In this document: one piece after another, positions 14,193-48,211 of the stretch
How positions within the stretch are numbered: the first letter of the stretch is position 1
How the letters are laid out: each line of letters starts with the position of its first letter
Assembly: GCF_000968135.1 (NCBI RefSeq)
Contig: NZ_FO538765.1
Location: 3,298,001 to 3,362,000, forward strand
Source: Magnetospira sp. QH-2
GTDB lineage: Bacteria; Pseudomonadota; Alphaproteobacteria; Rhodospirillales; Magnetospiraceae
DNA length: 64,000 nt
Reading direction: 5' to 3'
Program-made: the position numbers and the translations under genes
Notes under the pieces: generated by a model
Told to the model about the DNA's origin: nothing
Database searches by the model: none
Seen by the model: only the letters and a program-made list of their open reading frames with translations

Positions 14193-14290
14193 AGCGCCTG
14201 TCAGGTCCAATCGGACCCGTTGGACAGGCGCAACCCTATTGGAATCGATCACGTCGTGTTTGATCTAATCCGATCAAACACGACGTGATG
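14193..14290 (-). repeat. Two-stem palindromic repeat, copy A
   Basis: First of three related intergenic repeats (others at 33530-33595 and 46925-47023). Read on the minus strand it has an 18-bp perfect inverted repeat (ATCACGTCGTGTTTGATC and its complement around a 6-nt loop at 14249-14290). The shared link CGATTCCAATA follows, then a second imperfect palindrome built around GGGTCCGATTGGACC. Unlike the other copies it is not flanked by CTAG/CTAA, so it may be older. Confidence 0.85.
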
Positions 14291-14387
14291 TGGTGTGCTG
14301 GAACCCATTTGCTCCAAGTATCTCATTCAATTCCGAAGCCCGCGAAACGGTCGCCCCAACAAGGCGGCGGCCTTCAGATTGGAGCGA

Positions 14388-31957: not shown

Positions 31958-32240
31958 TCTAGCAGGCTGCTGAAAAAGAGTTGTCCTACGGCCCGCCTCA
32001 CCCTTCGTCCCTCGACAAGCTCGGGATGAGGAAGCTCAGGGTGAGGCGAACATGTTGAAAATTCAAAGGCCCTCATGCTGAGCTTGTCGAAGCATGTGTC
32101 GCCACAGGCTCGAAATCGGACTTTTTCAGATGGCGGTAATCGAGCAGTCAGGGATTGCCTAGACAGTCAGCTGGTCTCCACACTCGGTCTTGATCAAGTA
32201 TCCGGGTCAATTCCTGGACATGGAACAGAGGAGACCAGCT

Positions 32241-33272
32241 ATGGAGTATTTTGTTGGAATGGACGTATCGATGGCAAGCATTTCGATCTGTGAGATTGAT
32301 GCAAAGGGAACCGTCATTCGCGAAGGCAAGGTGTCAAGCACACCCGAGGCGGTCGCCACTTGGCTCGAGGAAAGCGGGCGTGGCTTTGCGCGAATTGGGT
32401 TGGAAGCTGGCCCTCTGGCGCCTTGGCTGTACGCAGGACTGTCCAGTCGGGGCCTCCCTGTGATTTGTATCGAGACCCGGCAAATGAAGGCCTTTGCCAG
32501 CGCCAGCCCAGTCAAGACGGACCGTCGCGACGCCCGCTTGATCAGCCAGGCGATGCGGACCGGTTTGTACCGCGCGACCCACGTCAAGACCGCGCGCAGT
32601 CAGGAGCTCCGGATGGTGCTGACCCATCGGGAGACCCTGGTTCATCAGGTCCGTCAGTTGTCCAATACGGTACGAGGAACATTGAAAGCTTTCGGCCTCA
32701 AGGTCGGTATGGCGCGCGGACGCCTTTTCGCGGCGCGGGTTCGGGAATTGACGGCTGATAACCCGCACCTCAGCGCAGCCGCCGAGCCGCTCTTGCTTGC
32801 GCGCCAAGCCTTGCTCGAACAACTCGACAAGCTCGACCGGCAGGTTCATGCCGCTGCGCGCGATGATAGCGTTTGCCGGCGCCTGATGACCGTTCCCGGC
32901 GTCGGCCCGGTTACCGCCCTCGCTTTCAGGACAGGACTCGACGTGCCGGAACGGTTTCAAAAGTCGGTCATGGTCGGCGCCCACTTCGGGCTTGTCCCAC
33001 GCAGATACGCCTCGGGAGAGCAGGACCGAAGCGGCCCCATCAGCAAGTGCGGAGATGCCATGGTTCGTTGGCTTTTGTTCGAGGCCGCCAATGCACTTCT
33101 CACTCGAACCCGCCGTTGGTCCTGGCTCAAACACTGGGGGCTCGCGGTCGCCAAAAGGCGCGGGATGAAACGCGCCAAGGTAGCCGTTGCCCGGCGTCTC
33201 GCCGTAATCATGCATCGCATGTGGATCGACGGCACGGACTTCCAGTACCGCAAGGAGGAGACCGCCATCTAA
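32241..33272 (+). CDS. IS110-family transposase (DEDD recombinase)
   Basis: A 343-residue transposase. The N-terminal RuvC-like DEDD domain shows YFVGMDVS (first Asp), IGLEAGP (Glu) and the catalytic pair in KTDRRDARLI. A coiled-coil stretch covers about 130-215. The C-terminal transposase_20 domain reads LMTVPGVGPVTALAFRTGL, with the conserved Ser region in YASGEQDRSGPISKCGD. The start at 32241 follows AGAGGAGA; an upstream in-frame ATG at 32190 lacks a ribosome site. The gene is intact, so the element may still be active if its RNA is made. Confidence 0.95.
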   Translation: MEYFVGMDVSMASISICEIDAKGTVIREGKVSSTPEAVATWLEESGRGFARIGLEAGPLAPWLYAGLSSRGLPVICIETRQMKAFASASPVKTDRRDARLISQAMRTGLYRATHVKTARSQELRMVLTHRETLVHQVRQLSNTVRGTLKAFGLKVGMARGRLFAARVRELTADNPHLSAAAEPLLLARQALLEQLDKLDRQVHAAARDDSVCRRLMTVPGVGPVTALAFRTGLDVPERFQKSVMVGAHFGLVPRRYASGEQDRSGPISKCGDAMVRWLLFEAANALLTRTRRWSWLKHWGLAVAKRRGMKRAKVAVARRLAVIMHRMWIDGTDFQYRKEETAI

Positions 33273-33518
33273 ACACAACGAAAACCGAGATCGCCTGAAG
33301 GGCGGCCAGGACGCGTGGCGACGCGCGGGGCTCGGATGACAGCGCGCAGGCTGCAGTGGCGTAAGACCACGCTTTTCAGATTGCTGCACCCGATCCCCCT
33401 TGATCCCCATCATGCGGCGACGACGTCGACCGCGGACAGAAGCAAAGGGCGCCACATACCCCAGGTTCAAACCGACGGCTTGGAAATCAGCTTGACTCAA
33501 ATGACTCGATTACAGAAG
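33273..33518 (+). ncRNA. Candidate bridge/seek RNA region in the IS right end
   Basis: A 246-bp non-coding right end, the place where IS1111-group elements encode their guide RNA. At 33346-33354 GCAGGCTGC is complementary to the right half of the target (GCAGCCTGC). At 33373-33379 TTTTCAG is identical to the left half. A small hairpin GTGG-CGTAAGA-CCAC lies between them and an outer TGCAG/CTGCA pairing encloses the unit. Further on, ACAGAAG (33436-33442) equals the element's right tip and CGCCA at about 33450 is complementary to its left tip (TGGCG). RNA ends and folding are not determined. Confidence 0.55.
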
Positions 33519-33529
33519 CAGCCTGCTAG

Positions 33530-33595
33530 ATCACATCGTGATCGATTCCAATAAAGTCGCGCGGGTCCAACGGGTCCGATCGGACCCGACACGCG
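33530..33595 (+). repeat. Two-stem palindromic repeat, copy B (shortened)
   Basis: Related to copies A and C but lacking the inner part of the first stem: it reads ATCACATCGTGATCGATTCC and continues into the second palindrome around CGGGTCCGATCGGACCCG. It is bounded by CTAG (33526-33529, shared with the miniature element) and CTAA (33596-33599). The CTAA supplies the TAG stop of the Gfo/Idh gene on the minus strand. Confidence 0.8.
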
Positions 33596-34600
33596 CTAAG
33601 CGACAGCCACCCAGCGATCCGTGCGGATCGACTGGAACAACGCCTCGATGACCCGCATATTGGCCAAGCCGTCTTCCAGCGGGAATTCAAGGGGCTCCTT
33701 GGAGCGAATGCAGCGGGAGAAATCTTCACCTTGCAGCCGATACTGATCGGTCTCGGCAATCCATTGTTCGGTGGCCGATGATCCATCCCGGGCCCCGGTT
33801 GAATCCACGAATATCCGCGTCCTTTGCTCCGATGGGGCATTAAACGGAATCTCCACTTCGATCCGTCCGGTGGTGCCCAACACCTGAACCCGCTGATGGG
33901 GCAACGCCTGGGTGGATATGGTGAATGAGACTTGGCCGATGCCGAAATCCAATAGGACGCTGGCCAGTCTGTCGGTGCCGAAAACCGGATCGACCTCGGC
34001 GGTCGCGATCACCCGCACCGGCTCCAGACCAAACAGATAGCGCGAGATCACCACCGGATAGACACCGATGTCATAGAGCGCGCCGCCGCCCGTGTCCGGT
34101 CGGTTGCGGATGTCCCGACCATCATCATTGTAAAAGGAGAACAGCGCCTGAATAGCGCGCAGGTCACCGATCTTGCCCGACCGAAGCAGATCCCGCACCC
34201 GATGCCATTGCGGATGATGACGGACCATGAAGGCTTCGCCGATGAGCACCCCCGCCCGGTCGCGAACCGCCAGTAACTCTTCGGCCTCGGCAACGCTCAG
34301 AGATAAGGGCTTCTCGCAAAGCACGTGCTTGCCTTTTTCCGCCGCCTTGATGGACCAAGGAACATGCAGGTGGTTAGGCAGGGGATTATAGATCGCTTCG
34401 ATGTCCGGATCATCGAGCAAGGCTTCGTAGCTGTCATAGGCTCTGGCGATTCCTAGGTCCGCCGCGGCCTTTTTCACCTTGGCCCCATCCCGCGAGGCAA
34501 TGGCCGCGACGGTGCAAAGGGGACTGCGCGCCATGGCCGGGATAACCTGCTCCAGGCCAATTTTCGCCGAGCTCAGAATGCCCCAGCGCACCGGGTTCAC
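33596..34600 (-). CDS. Gfo/Idh/MocA-family NAD(P)-dependent oxidoreductase
   Basis: A 334-residue oxidoreductase. The N-terminal Rossmann fold begins WGILSSAKIGLEQVIPAM; the family's EKP signature is present in HVLCEKPLSLS; the C-terminal alpha/beta domain includes GGGALYDIGVYPV with the conserved Asp/Tyr region. Members oxidise or reduce sugars and inositols; within this xylose locus a pentose or aldose 1-dehydrogenase is plausible. It overlaps the LacI gene by ATGA. Its TAG stop coincides with the CTAA boundary of repeat copy B. The substrate is not determined. Confidence 0.85.
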   Translation of the reverse strand: MNPVRWGILSSAKIGLEQVIPAMARSPLCTVAAIASRDGAKVKKAAADLGIARAYDSYEALLDDPDIEAIYNPLPNHLHVPWSIKAAEKGKHVLCEKPLSLSVAEAEELLAVRDRAGVLIGEAFMVRHHPQWHRVRDLLRSGKIGDLRAIQALFSFYNDDGRDIRNRPDTGGGALYDIGVYPVVISRYLFGLEPVRVIATAEVDPVFGTDRLASVLLDFGIGQVSFTISTQALPHQRVQVLGTTGRIEVEIPFNAPSEQRTRIFVDSTGARDGSSATEQWIAETDQYRLQGEDFSRCIRSKEPLEFPLEDGLANMRVIEALFQSIRTDRWVAVA

Positions 34601-44912: not shown

Positions 44913-45895
44913 TGCGATACAGAACTTTTGGCGACACCGGCGTTTCCATATCGGAAATCGGCCTTGGCACATGGCAATTGGGCGCCGAATGGGGCGATGT
45001 TTCGGATAGCCAAGCCCAGGCCATCTTGGATACGGCACGCGATGCCGGCATCTCCTTTTTTGATACGGCCGATGTCTATGGGCTGGGACGAAGCGAAGAA
45101 CGGATCCGGACGTTCTTGAGCCGCTGTTCCAAACCTGTTTTCGTGGCCACCAAGCTGGGCCGCTTTCCAGAGCCCGGCTGGCCGGAGAATTTTACCTTCG
45201 AGAGCTTCCGAACCCATGTGGAAGCCTCGCTGACGCGGCTCGGAGTCGAGGCCCTGGACCTCACGCAGATGCATTGCATTCCCACCGAGGTATTACGCGA
45301 CGGGGCCGTGTTCGACCACCTTCGACGCCTGAAAACGGACGGCAAGATCAAGGCTTTCGGGGTCAGTGTCGAGACCGTGGAAGAAGGGCTGATCTGCCTG
45401 GAGCAAGAGGGGGTTACCTCGTTGCAGGTGATCTTCAACATGTTTCGACAGAAACCGGCTCGCGAGCTTTTCGATCTGGCCAAGGCCAAGGGCGTGGCGA
45501 TCATTGCCCGGGTACCCATGGCCAGCGGGTTGCTGTCGGGAAAATTCACCGTCGATCAGACCTTTGACAAAGACGACCACCGCACTTTCAACCGTGACGG
45601 CGCCGCCTTCAACGTGGGCGAGACCTTCGCGGGCCTACCGTTCGAAAAGGGCGTCCGACTGGCCGATCGGCTGAAGGACATGGTGCCCGAGGGCCTGTCC
45701 CTGGCAGACATGGCGCTACGTTGGATTTTGGACCATGACGCCGTGAGCACGGTGATTCCTGGCGCCACCCGTCCGGAACAGGCCTTAAGCAATGCCCGGG
45801 CCTCCGACCTGCCCCCACTGGGCGCGGACCTGCATGCGCAACTCGCGGCCTTTTATGACAGCGATATCGCGGAGCATATTCGTGGGGCCTACTAA
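44912..45895 (+). CDS. Aldo/keto reductase
   Basis: A 327-residue NADPH-dependent aldo/keto reductase barrel. The catalytic tetrad is visible: Asp and Tyr in FFDTADVYG, Lys in VATKLG and His in LTQMHCI. The C-terminal cofactor region reads STVIPGATRPEQALSNA. It is coupled to the ATPase gene by a TGATG junction and therefore belongs to the sugar operon, where it may reduce an aldose or a derived aldehyde. Its TAA stop is part of a CTAA bounding a miniature-element end. Confidence 0.88.
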   Translation: MRYRTFGDTGVSISEIGLGTWQLGAEWGDVSDSQAQAILDTARDAGISFFDTADVYGLGRSEERIRTFLSRCSKPVFVATKLGRFPEPGWPENFTFESFRTHVEASLTRLGVEALDLTQMHCIPTEVLRDGAVFDHLRRLKTDGKIKAFGVSVETVEEGLICLEQEGVTSLQVIFNMFRQKPARELFDLAKAKGVAIIARVPMASGLLSGKFTVDQTFDKDDHRTFNRDGAAFNVGETFAGLPFEKGVRLADRLKDMVPEGLSLADMALRWILDHDAVSTVIPGATRPEQALSNARASDLPPLGADLHAQLAAFYDSDIAEHIRGAY

Positions 45896-45931
45896 AGCCT
45901 TTCGCGTTTAATATGACCCATTGTGATGGTC
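45896..45931 (+). mobile_element. Solo end of miniature element type 1
   Basis: AGCCTTTCGCGTTTAATATG and the following 16 bases match the left end of the complete element at 47632-47891 with three differences over 36 bp. It is preceded by CTAA (45892-45895), which is also the aldo/keto reductase stop. The rest of the element is absent. The start codon of the epimerase gene lies inside it. Confidence 0.75.
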
Positions 45932-46924
45932 AGACGCGAACCTTTTGGACAAGCCAACCTGTTCCACCTGAACGCGGGCGGAAGCTGGCGAATCACCTTG
46001 ACTAATTTCGGCGCCGCCCTCGTCGCTTGGCACATGCCCGACGGGGATGGGCAGGCGGGGAATATCCTTCTCGGTTTTGACGATTTCCAGGACTACCTGG
46101 ACGATGACCAGTTCACGGGGGTCATCGTGGGACGATTTGCCAATCGCATTGCCCAAGGGCGGTTCAACTTCGCGGGAACCCCTTACCTCCTGCCCCGCAA
46201 TGACAGCCCCAACCACCTGCATGGGGGCCCGGACGGCTTTCATCGCCGCGTCTGGGAGGCGGATGTTTTTGAACGATCAGATCATGTAGGAGTCCGCTTC
46301 GGTTTGCTTTCGCCCCATGGAGATCAGGGCTATCCGGGAACCCTAACCGTGAGGGCGCACTATCGCCTGTACACCGAGGACCGGCTGACCCTCGATCTGG
46401 AGGCCGACAGCGACCGGCCCACCTTGGTCAATTTGGCCTGCCATGCCTATTTCAATCTGGCTGGTGGCGGCAGCGTTCTGGATCACCGGATACAGGTCCA
46501 TGCGAGCCGGTACCTGCCCATCAACGAGGCCTGCTTACCCACCGGCGAAATCCGTTCAGTGGAAGGGAGCGCATTGGATCTGCGTCGCCCGCAAAGCCTG
46601 AGAGGGGTCCTGTCCAGAGAGGATCAACAATTGACGATGGCCGGGGGGGTGGATCATTGCCTGGTCGTCGATGGTCATCCCGGTGAGCTGCGGCCCGCTG
46701 CCAACGTTGAAGATCCGGCGTCGGGGCGACGCCTGCGGGTGGCCGCCACCCAGCCGGGGGTGCAGGTCTATAGCGGCAATAACCTGAAAGGCATGCCTTT
46801 CAAAAAACATGCCGGATTATGCCTGGAAACCCAGCATTTTCCCGACAGCCCTAATCAGCCAGGGTTCCCCTCGACGGTGATCGACCCGGATCATCCCTAC
46901 CGGGAGCGAATGGTCTTCACCTAG
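45926..46924 (+). CDS. galM: Aldose 1-epimerase
   Basis: A 332-residue mutarotase interconverting alpha and beta anomers of aldoses. Family features are ITLTNFGAALVAWHMPD, GRFANRIAQGRF, the catalytic His region SPNHLHGGPDGFHRRVW, LVNLACHAYFNLAG, VDHCLVVDG and the catalytic Glu in GLCLETQHFPDSPNQP. The ATG at 45926 (or GTG at 45923) lies within a solo mobile-element end, so the native 5' region has been replaced. The TAG stop at 46922 is part of the CTAG flank of repeat copy C. Confidence 0.92.
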   Translation: MVRREPFGQANLFHLNAGGSWRITLTNFGAALVAWHMPDGDGQAGNILLGFDDFQDYLDDDQFTGVIVGRFANRIAQGRFNFAGTPYLLPRNDSPNHLHGGPDGFHRRVWEADVFERSDHVGVRFGLLSPHGDQGYPGTLTVRAHYRLYTEDRLTLDLEADSDRPTLVNLACHAYFNLAGGGSVLDHRIQVHASRYLPINEACLPTGEIRSVEGSALDLRRPQSLRGVLSREDQQLTMAGGVDHCLVVDGHPGELRPAANVEDPASGRRLRVAATQPGVQVYSGNNLKGMPFKKHAGLCLETQHFPDSPNQPGFPSTVIDPDHPYRERMVFT

Positions 46925-47023
46925 ATCACGTCGTGTTTGATCGGATTCGATCAAACACGAAAAACGTGATCGATTCCAATAAGGGCGCGCGTGTCTAGCG
47001 GGTCCGATTGGACCTGACACGCG
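46925..47023 (+). repeat. Two-stem palindromic repeat, copy C, with CTAG duplication
   Basis: A 99-bp element flanked on both sides by CTAG (46921-46924 and 47024-47027). Stem one is built from CGTGTTTGATCGGATTCGAT and its complementary arm; the link is CGATTCCAATA; stem two brackets GGGTCCGATTGGACCTG between GCGCGTGTC and GACACGCGC. Each CTAG provides the TAG stop of the adjacent convergent gene (galM on plus, the acetyltransferase on minus). It likely acts as a bidirectional terminator. Confidence 0.85.
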
Positions 47024-47593
47024 CTAGAGGCCGCGGATCACTCGACATGGGTTGCCCGCCGCCACCACACCCGGCGGCACGTCCTTCATGACGACGCTGC
47101 CGGCGCCGATGGTGGTGTCCTCGCCGATGGTCACCCCGGGGCCGATGATGGCTCCGGCGCCGATCCAGGCCCGGTTGCCAATGGTGATGGGATAGGCCAG
47201 TTCCGGTCCGGCCACCCGTTGCTCCGCGTCCAACGGGTGAGTGGCTGCCGAGAGGGTGACATTGGGGCCGAGCTGGGTCTGGTCGCCGATGCGCACATGG
47301 TTGCAATCCAGGATGATGCAATTGAAGTTCATATAGACCCCGCGCCCTAGGGATATTTGGCTGCCGTAGTCGCAGTGGAATGGCGGTTCGATCCAGGTCC
47401 CTTCCCCCATGACCCCCAACAACTCATTGAGCAACAAGCGGCGCTCGTCGATGGCATCGGGTTCCGAGAGGTTGTAGGCCCGGGTCAACCGCCGTGCCCG
47501 CAAACGCAGGGCGACCAACTCCGGGTCGGAGGCGTCATAAAGATCGCCGCCGAGCATCTTTGAAAGTTCGGATATCGTGCCGGTCGGCCGCAT
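47024..47593 (-). CDS. maa: Maltose/galactoside O-acetyltransferase family protein
   Basis: A 189-residue left-handed beta-helix acetyltransferase. The N-terminal Mac domain (MLGGDLYDASDPELVALRLR...LLNELLG) precedes hexapeptide repeats, with FHCDYGSQISLGRGVYMNFN, the catalytic His in AATHPLDAEQR, IGNRAWIGAGAIIGPGVTIG and AGNPCRVIRGL. It acetylates sugars with acetyl-CoA, probably as trimers. The start at 47593 follows AAGGAGGAGG. The gene converges on galM and ends in repeat copy C. Confidence 0.92.
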   Translation of the reverse strand: MRPTGTISELSKMLGGDLYDASDPELVALRLRARRLTRAYNLSEPDAIDERRLLLNELLGVMGEGTWIEPPFHCDYGSQISLGRGVYMNFNCIILDCNHVRIGDQTQLGPNVTLSAATHPLDAEQRVAGPELAYPITIGNRAWIGAGAIIGPGVTIGEDTTIGAGSVVMKDVPPGVVAAGNPCRVIRGL

Positions 47594-47631
47594 GGCGCCA
47601 CCTCCTCCTTGATAGATCAGACGTGATCTAA

Positions 47632-47891
47632 AGCCTTTCGCGATTAATATGACCCATTTTGATGGTCTCCGGTGAGTCGAAACGCCAGGAAAGGTCCCGA
47701 AAGCGATGCGGCGCATCGGTGAGGGAGCTTGACGCTGCGGGCGGCCACCGGAGGCCACTGGAGACCACCCTGCGGGCCGATCCTTTTGCCTAAGGGGAGC
47801 GTTCGCGCGCGCCCGCTACGCCCTGCGCGCTACGCCTGCCCCTGAGCCAAAATGATTCGGTCAGAAGGGGTCATATGAAGCGCGAAAGGCT
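47632..47891. mobile_element. Miniature element type 1 with CTAA target duplication
   Basis: A 260-bp element without a gene. Terminal inverted repeats: left AGCCTTTCGCGATTAATATG, right complement AGCCTTTCGCGCTTCATATG, 24 bp with two internal mismatches. It is flanked by direct CTAA repeats at 47628-47631 and 47892-47895. An inner inverted pair GGTCTCC/GGAGACC is present. The size, ends and CTAA duplication suit mobilisation in trans by an IS5-type transposase (YTAR target), none of which is in the window. Confidence 0.8.
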
Positions 47892-47895
47892 CTAA

Positions 47896-48056
47896 GAGGC
47901 GGATTTAAAAGTATCCTTTAGATATCAAGGCAGTAGATTTTTGATCTGGCCAGGAAAGGCCGACGACACGGGGCGGCGCCCCGTTAGGAGGTCTTGACGC
48001 CGCCAGAGCGGAAATATACGCCCTCGAGATCAAAGGAATACTTTTGAATCCGTCTC
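47896..48056. mobile_element. Miniature element type 2 with TAA target duplication
   Basis: A 161-bp element without a gene. Its terminal inverted repeats begin GAGGCGGATTTAAAAGTAT (left) and GAGACGGATTCAAAAGTAT (right, complement). It is flanked by direct TAA repeats (47893-47895 and 48057-48059). A central hairpin ACGGGGC-GGC-GCCCCGT is present. It abuts the type 1 element on one side and the type 3 element on the other. Confidence 0.78.
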
Positions 48057-48059
48057 TAA

Positions 48060-48211
48060 CAGGCTACTGAAAAAGTGTTGTCCTACGGCCCGCCTCGCCC
48101 TTCGACAAGCTCAGGGTGAGGCTAACATGTTGAAGGTTCAAAGGTCCTCATGCTGAGCTTGTCGAAGCATGTGTCGCCACAGGCTCGAAATCGGACTTTT
48201 TCAGCAGCCTG
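48060..48211. mobile_element. Miniature element type 3, intact copy 2
   Basis: A 152-bp element with ends CAGGCTACTGAAAAAG (left) and CAGGCTGCTGAAAAAG (right, complement), and the same interior CTTCGACAAGCTC/GAGCTTGTCGAAG inverted repeat as copy 1 at 31963. It is flanked by CTAA and TTAG; the TTAG gives the TAA stop of the DMT transporter gene. It preserves the uninterrupted sequence that the IS1111-type element has split in copy 1. Confidence 0.85.

Follow-up and report, generated by a model that had tools for sequence, protein, structure and literature searches.

The 64,000-nt window analysed here is taken from the genome of Magnetospira sp. QH-2 (contig NZ_FO538765.1, positions 3,298,001 to 3,362,000), and the feature under study is one copy (copy C) of a 101-nt repeat that lies between galM (aldose 1-epimerase) and a convergent maa-like maltose/galactoside O-acetyltransferase gene. 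Judged from the sequence comparisons below, copy C is very probably a recent insertion of a small mobile repeat into a single CTAG that ended both genes, and the stop codons of both were preserved. In the proposed mechanism, a small non-autonomous element of 101 nt with two hairpins would insert at the TA of YTAR (mostly CTAG) and duplicate the TA. Both stops would be kept because YTAR contains TAA or TAG whichever strand is read, and because the terminal bases of the element, G at the start and C at the end, leave a TAG for each gene. The target at copy C would have been one CTAG where the facing galM and maa both ended, and the insertion would have altered neither protein and merely separated the two genes.

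The 3' end of galM reads ...ATG GTC TTC ACC TAG. Direct reading and the open reading frame (ORF) list placed CTAG on either side of copy C, with the galM TAG in the left one and the minus-strand maa TAG in the right one, as a preliminary description of this DNA had reported (Table 1). The two genes are convergent and are now 99 bp apart. When the flanks are rejoined, the sequence becomes ...TTCAC-CTAG-AGGCC..., in which the CTAG would be the stop of both genes, and the predicted galM-maa junction without the repeat is ...TTCACCTAGAGGCC.... Both proteins are full length, neither truncated nor extended. The Pfam Aldose_epim match extends to residue 332 of 333 in GalM (the best NCBIfam match is galM_Leloir, with a score below its cut-off), and the maa product was aligned with maltose O-acetyltransferases through its last residues. 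The proposal in the preliminary description that a single CTAG was the former stop of both genes is very probably right, on good but indirect evidence: these full-length C-termini, and paralogous sites that have a single CTAG or CTAA when empty and were filled without loss. The overlap of two bases given there fits the stop codons, which would have had TA in common, whereas the genes themselves would have overlapped by four bases (CTAG). Convergent overlaps of 4 nt (CTAG, CTAA, TTAG, TTAA) are a well-described class (PMC2174442) to which the presumed state of galM and maa before insertion would belong, here split by the insertion; one unfilled example (CTAA) was found in the sampled sequence.

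Empty and filled sites elsewhere in the genome were compared. The site GTCAGGGATTGC-CTAG/CTAA-ACAGTCAGCTGG in an IS110-like element is empty in 35 exact copies, 10 of these with CTAA. It is filled in 5 copies, where the repeat lies between two CTAGs with both flanks intact and no bases lost; a sixth filled copy (172512) is truncated. Because the empty and filled IS110-like sites differ exactly by the repeat, one CTAG becomes two without base loss. The site CGATCCTTTTGC-CTAA-GGGGAGCGT in a second repeat family is empty three times, and its filled form is CTAG...CTAA or CTAT. Fresh copies nearly always have CTAG or TTAG at the left end, the right end is CTAG or CTAA, and the base following the right-hand CTA is almost always A or G. 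Since a known CTAA site fills as CTAG...CTAA or CTAT, the G following the left-hand TA and the C preceding the right-hand TA appear to be the element's own bases, and the target duplication appears to be the TA within YTAR. The G of the galM TAG and the C pairing with the G of the maa TAG belong to copy C, and the net gain per insertion is 103 bp. The preliminary description had the whole CTAG duplicated: a duplication does occur and each gene has its own stop, but the unit is TA. A model in which CTA is the end of the element and nothing is duplicated is also formally compatible with these data; the symmetric target with TA duplication is favoured over it because the purine after the site is near-constant. 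All of these models predict the identical empty site for copy C.

Repeat copies were collected as separate genome loci that were fetched piecewise. The 17-nt core of the repeat has 64 exact matches and 21 matches with one or two mismatches in the 4.05-Mb genome (0 for a reversed control pattern, so the repeat is far above chance), and 86 copies were found at E<1e-6 in the fetched loci. In complete copies, 99 nt separate the two CTAGs, and the predicted fold has a hairpin beside each end. CTAG on both flanks is the commonest state (36 in the copy table), and tandem copies have one CTAG in common, with a period of 103. A 107-nt stretch of copy C folds at about -57 kcal/mol. Pairing over 53 distinct copies gave 1668 unchanged, 75 one-sided, 19 two-sided, and 82 unpaired cells, so that the covariation supporting the predicted hairpins is modest, the copies being mostly near-identical. 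No convincing copy was found in 59 relatives, where the best matches were 17-30 nt, and the exact core had no match in the genome-contig collection. An Rfam scan gave no family for the repeat and one sub-threshold chance match located outside it.

Table 1. Coordinates of galM, maa, and the repeat copies in the window
Feature	Position	Strand	Basis and remarks
galM (aldose 1-epimerase)	45923..46924	+	Stop TAG 46922-46924; direct read and ORF list; Pfam Aldose_epim
Duplicated target TA, left copy, inside CTAG 46921-46924	46922..46923		TA rather than CTAG duplication, from empty/filled site comparison
Copy C of the repeat (101 nt; first base G, last base C)	46924..47024	+	~85 genomic copies
Copy C left hairpin, 20 bp with 4-nt 3'-side bulge	46924..46971	+	Predicted fold; some compensatory changes
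Copy C right hairpin, 9 bp + 6 bp, 5'-side bulge TAGC	46987..47024	+	Predicted fold; some compensatory changes
Duplicated target TA, right copy, inside CTAG 47024-47027	47025..47026		Direct read; end bases of fresh copies
maa-like maltose/galactoside O-acetyltransferase	47024..47594 (start codon approximate)	-	Stop TAG 47026-47024; homologues align to last residues
Copy A of the repeat, an older copy without CTAG flanks	14193..14291	-	Repeat search in window
Copy B of the repeat, a variant whose left hairpin is shorter, flanked by CTAG (left) and CTAA (right)	33529..33596	+	Right-hand stop is the end of the neighbouring minus-strand gene

Other repeats were seen in the window. An IS110/IS1111-like element at 32147-33280 has, close to its 5' end, a CTAG hot spot that is empty; the genome holds ~40 copies of this site, some of them with the repeat or an IS711-like insertion sequence (IS). 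The second repeat family (CTAAAGCCTTTCGCG...), which carries the CTAA site that elsewhere hosts the 101-nt repeat, is present as a 40-nt remnant at 45892-45931, where it touches the TAA that ends the aldo/keto reductase gene lying upstream of galM, and as a longer copy at ~47628-47897 with an inverted end (CGCGAAAGGCTCTAAG) upstream of maa. Another dispersed repeat (CAGGCTGCTGAAAAAG...) is found at 31958-32129 and 48055-48204, 16 kb apart, and one of these copies starts beside a CTAG.

The positions of the insertions relative to genes were then summarized, with neighbouring copies merged into events, of which 66 lie outside the two best-known host repeats. A gene stop was present at the junction in 24 of these 66 insertions and in 82 of 677 (12%) non-coding YTAR sites without the element (odds ratio 4.1, Fisher p=2e-6). 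Stops were present on both sides in 3 of the 66 and in 1 of the 677 background sites (p=0.0025). The three double-stop insertions are those at galM/maa, at moeA and a 117-aa gene, and at a histidine kinase gene and an 84-aa gene; for the last pair, a match in another genome (G012) was not adjacent to the kinase gene and no empty site was obtained. Convergent gaps held 27 of the 66 events, compared with 28 of 282 gaps, which is a ~sixfold enrichment (p=2e-8). Of the 27 junction stops, 24 are stops already when the empty sites are reconstructed, so the repeat for the most part preserved stops rather than creating them. Because YTAR reads TAA/TAG on both strands, the clustering would be explained by the survival of insertions that do no harm, with no need for active targeting, and we infer that such survivor bias contributes more to it than active targeting does. 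It is a tentative and rather doubtful suggestion that the element has become adapted to using stop codons as safe insertion sites, with the terminal G and C kept by selection to remake TAG on both sides; if so, gene ends, even overlapping convergent ends, would be colonised without protein change.

Several observations weigh against the insertion of copy C into one shared CTAG. For the empty galM/maa locus, no same-genus genome was returned, and two genomes of the same family (G001 and G002) had no galM match. Among the other genomes, galM was found in 4 of 39, none of them close, and a scan of the genome collection for galM relatives gave none. In G001, which belongs to another genus and shows 43-53% identity, the orthologous moeA/117-aa pair is convergent without the repeat and has two TGA stops 9 nt apart. 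On these sequences, a shared CTAG is not general and may not be ancestral beyond this lineage; the G001 spacing is a caution for the moeA/117-aa locus only and says nothing direct on galM/maa. For the enrichment statistics, genes were called with a home-made program based on codon usage, and the background YTAR sites were drawn from the neighbourhoods of repeat copies. Clear terminal inverted repeats are lacking in the element, its ends GATCACGT... and GCGCGTGT... agreeing in register only at the first G, and among those IS families of the genome that were compared, no autonomous element has ends that match it.

Two other accounts of the galM/maa junction were weighed. The genes may once have had separate stops and a short spacer that was lost during the insertion (insertion with deletion) or later. 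The G001 moeA/117-aa pair, with its 9-nt spacer, is in line with such a loss, as the QH-2 orthologues abut the repeat on both sides; G001 is too divergent, however, for conserved gene ends to be expected. The deletions would also have to end precisely at a YTAR in frame, on either side of the repeat, at each of three loci. The insertions into the IS110-like element and into the second repeat family are exact and lost no bases, and this account is considered improbable. Creation of both stops by truncation of longer genes was dropped, since the reconstructed CTAG already contains both. The insertion might instead be adaptive, ending transcription in both directions between two convergent genes that interfere with each other; the preliminary description had called copy C a two-hairpin terminator. 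The strong hairpins of the 107-nt stretch and the excess of the repeat in convergent gaps would fit this role. That term is not upheld, as no hairpin followed by a U tract was found at copy C and a terminator scan gave no terminator-like site. Harmless insertions would also be expected to accumulate between convergent genes, as has been argued for pneumococcal repeats (PMC3049150), and a terminator function is regarded as very unlikely.

The repeat may have been moved by a DDE enzyme of IS5/IS427-type or IS630-type. An IS711-like (IS5/IS427-type) two-ORF IS of ~840 bp with DUF4096 and DDE_Tnp_1 domains is present in ~17 copies (L145-L158) with CTAG flanks, one with CTAG/CTAA; two copies lie in the same IS110 hot spot as the repeat, and two are joined to the repeat's end CTAG. 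It was set aside as a proven partner in that its ends (GGCTCAGGAC...) differ from those of the repeat, although target and hot spot are the same. The IS630 element, a single copy at CTAG with differing ends (GAGCGTTTCC...), and three Y1 transposase genes, which have no repeat copy in their immediate flanks, were also rejected and are weaker candidates than the IS711-like IS. Tandem partial and full repeat copies at genome positions 2913638-2913789 (L085) lie ~3 kb from a Y1 transposase gene, with no direct linkage seen. A different mechanism, single-stranded insertion of the IS200/IS605 or RAYT type 3' of YTA, would make the right CTA part of the element with no target duplication. The two hairpins beside the ends, the lack of terminal inverted repeats, the presence of the Y1 genes, and the near-constant right-hand CTA of fresh copies are all consistent with it. 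The purine that almost always follows the site, however, points to a symmetric YTAR target as with DDE enzymes, the Y1 genes are without flanking repeat, and the IS5/IS427-type IS uses the same target and hot spot in this genome; single-stranded insertion is regarded as unlikely. It concerns the mechanism only and predicts the same empty site as TA duplication at a shared CTAG.

The 101-nt repeat is probably mobile. A repeat that targets TA/YTAR could enter gene-dense DNA harmlessly, as the target is a stop on both strands and the end bases restore the stop. This would account simply for the accumulation of such repeats at the 3' ends of genes and in convergent gaps, and it suggests a possible, testable way in which convergent genes that overlap could come apart.

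Similar repeats have been described in other bacteria. In Brucella, Bru-RS1 is a 103 bp palindromic repeat, and IS711 (842 bp) duplicates TA at YTAR (PMC3163539, PMC2266754). The QH-2 repeat is likewise ~103 bp, palindromic, multicopy, intergenic, and associated with a YTAR/TA-specific IS (here ~840 bp), a likeness by description and not by sequence; the Brucella repeat is described as an IS target, whereas the QH-2 repeat itself also inserts. MITEPsy1 of Pseudomonas syringae (100 nt, IS5-type, CTAG or YTAA target; PMC3189936) is alike in length and target, but the QH-2 repeat is without clear inverted repeats and fits TA duplication. The RUP element of Streptococcus pneumoniae (107 bp, related to IS630-Spn1, over-represented between convergent genes; PMC3049150) is alike in size, folded structure, and excess between convergent genes; its terminal inverted repeats resemble those of the resident IS630, and none were found in the QH-2 repeat. 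A RAYT gene flanked by the repeat, which would be expected for REP/REPIN sequences, was not found among the three Y1 genes. As in IS-derived miniature transposable elements (MITEs), the repeat is dispersed, short, and non-coding, with ~85 copies of ~101 nt in the genome, and the empty sites indicate a target-site duplication (TA in YTAR); terminal inverted repeats and matching autonomous ends are the MITE features that were not seen. From its sequence features, the repeat can be described as a Bru-RS/MITE-like, YTAR-targeting palindromic repeat, which is a familiar kind of mobile repeat for which no new mechanism is needed.
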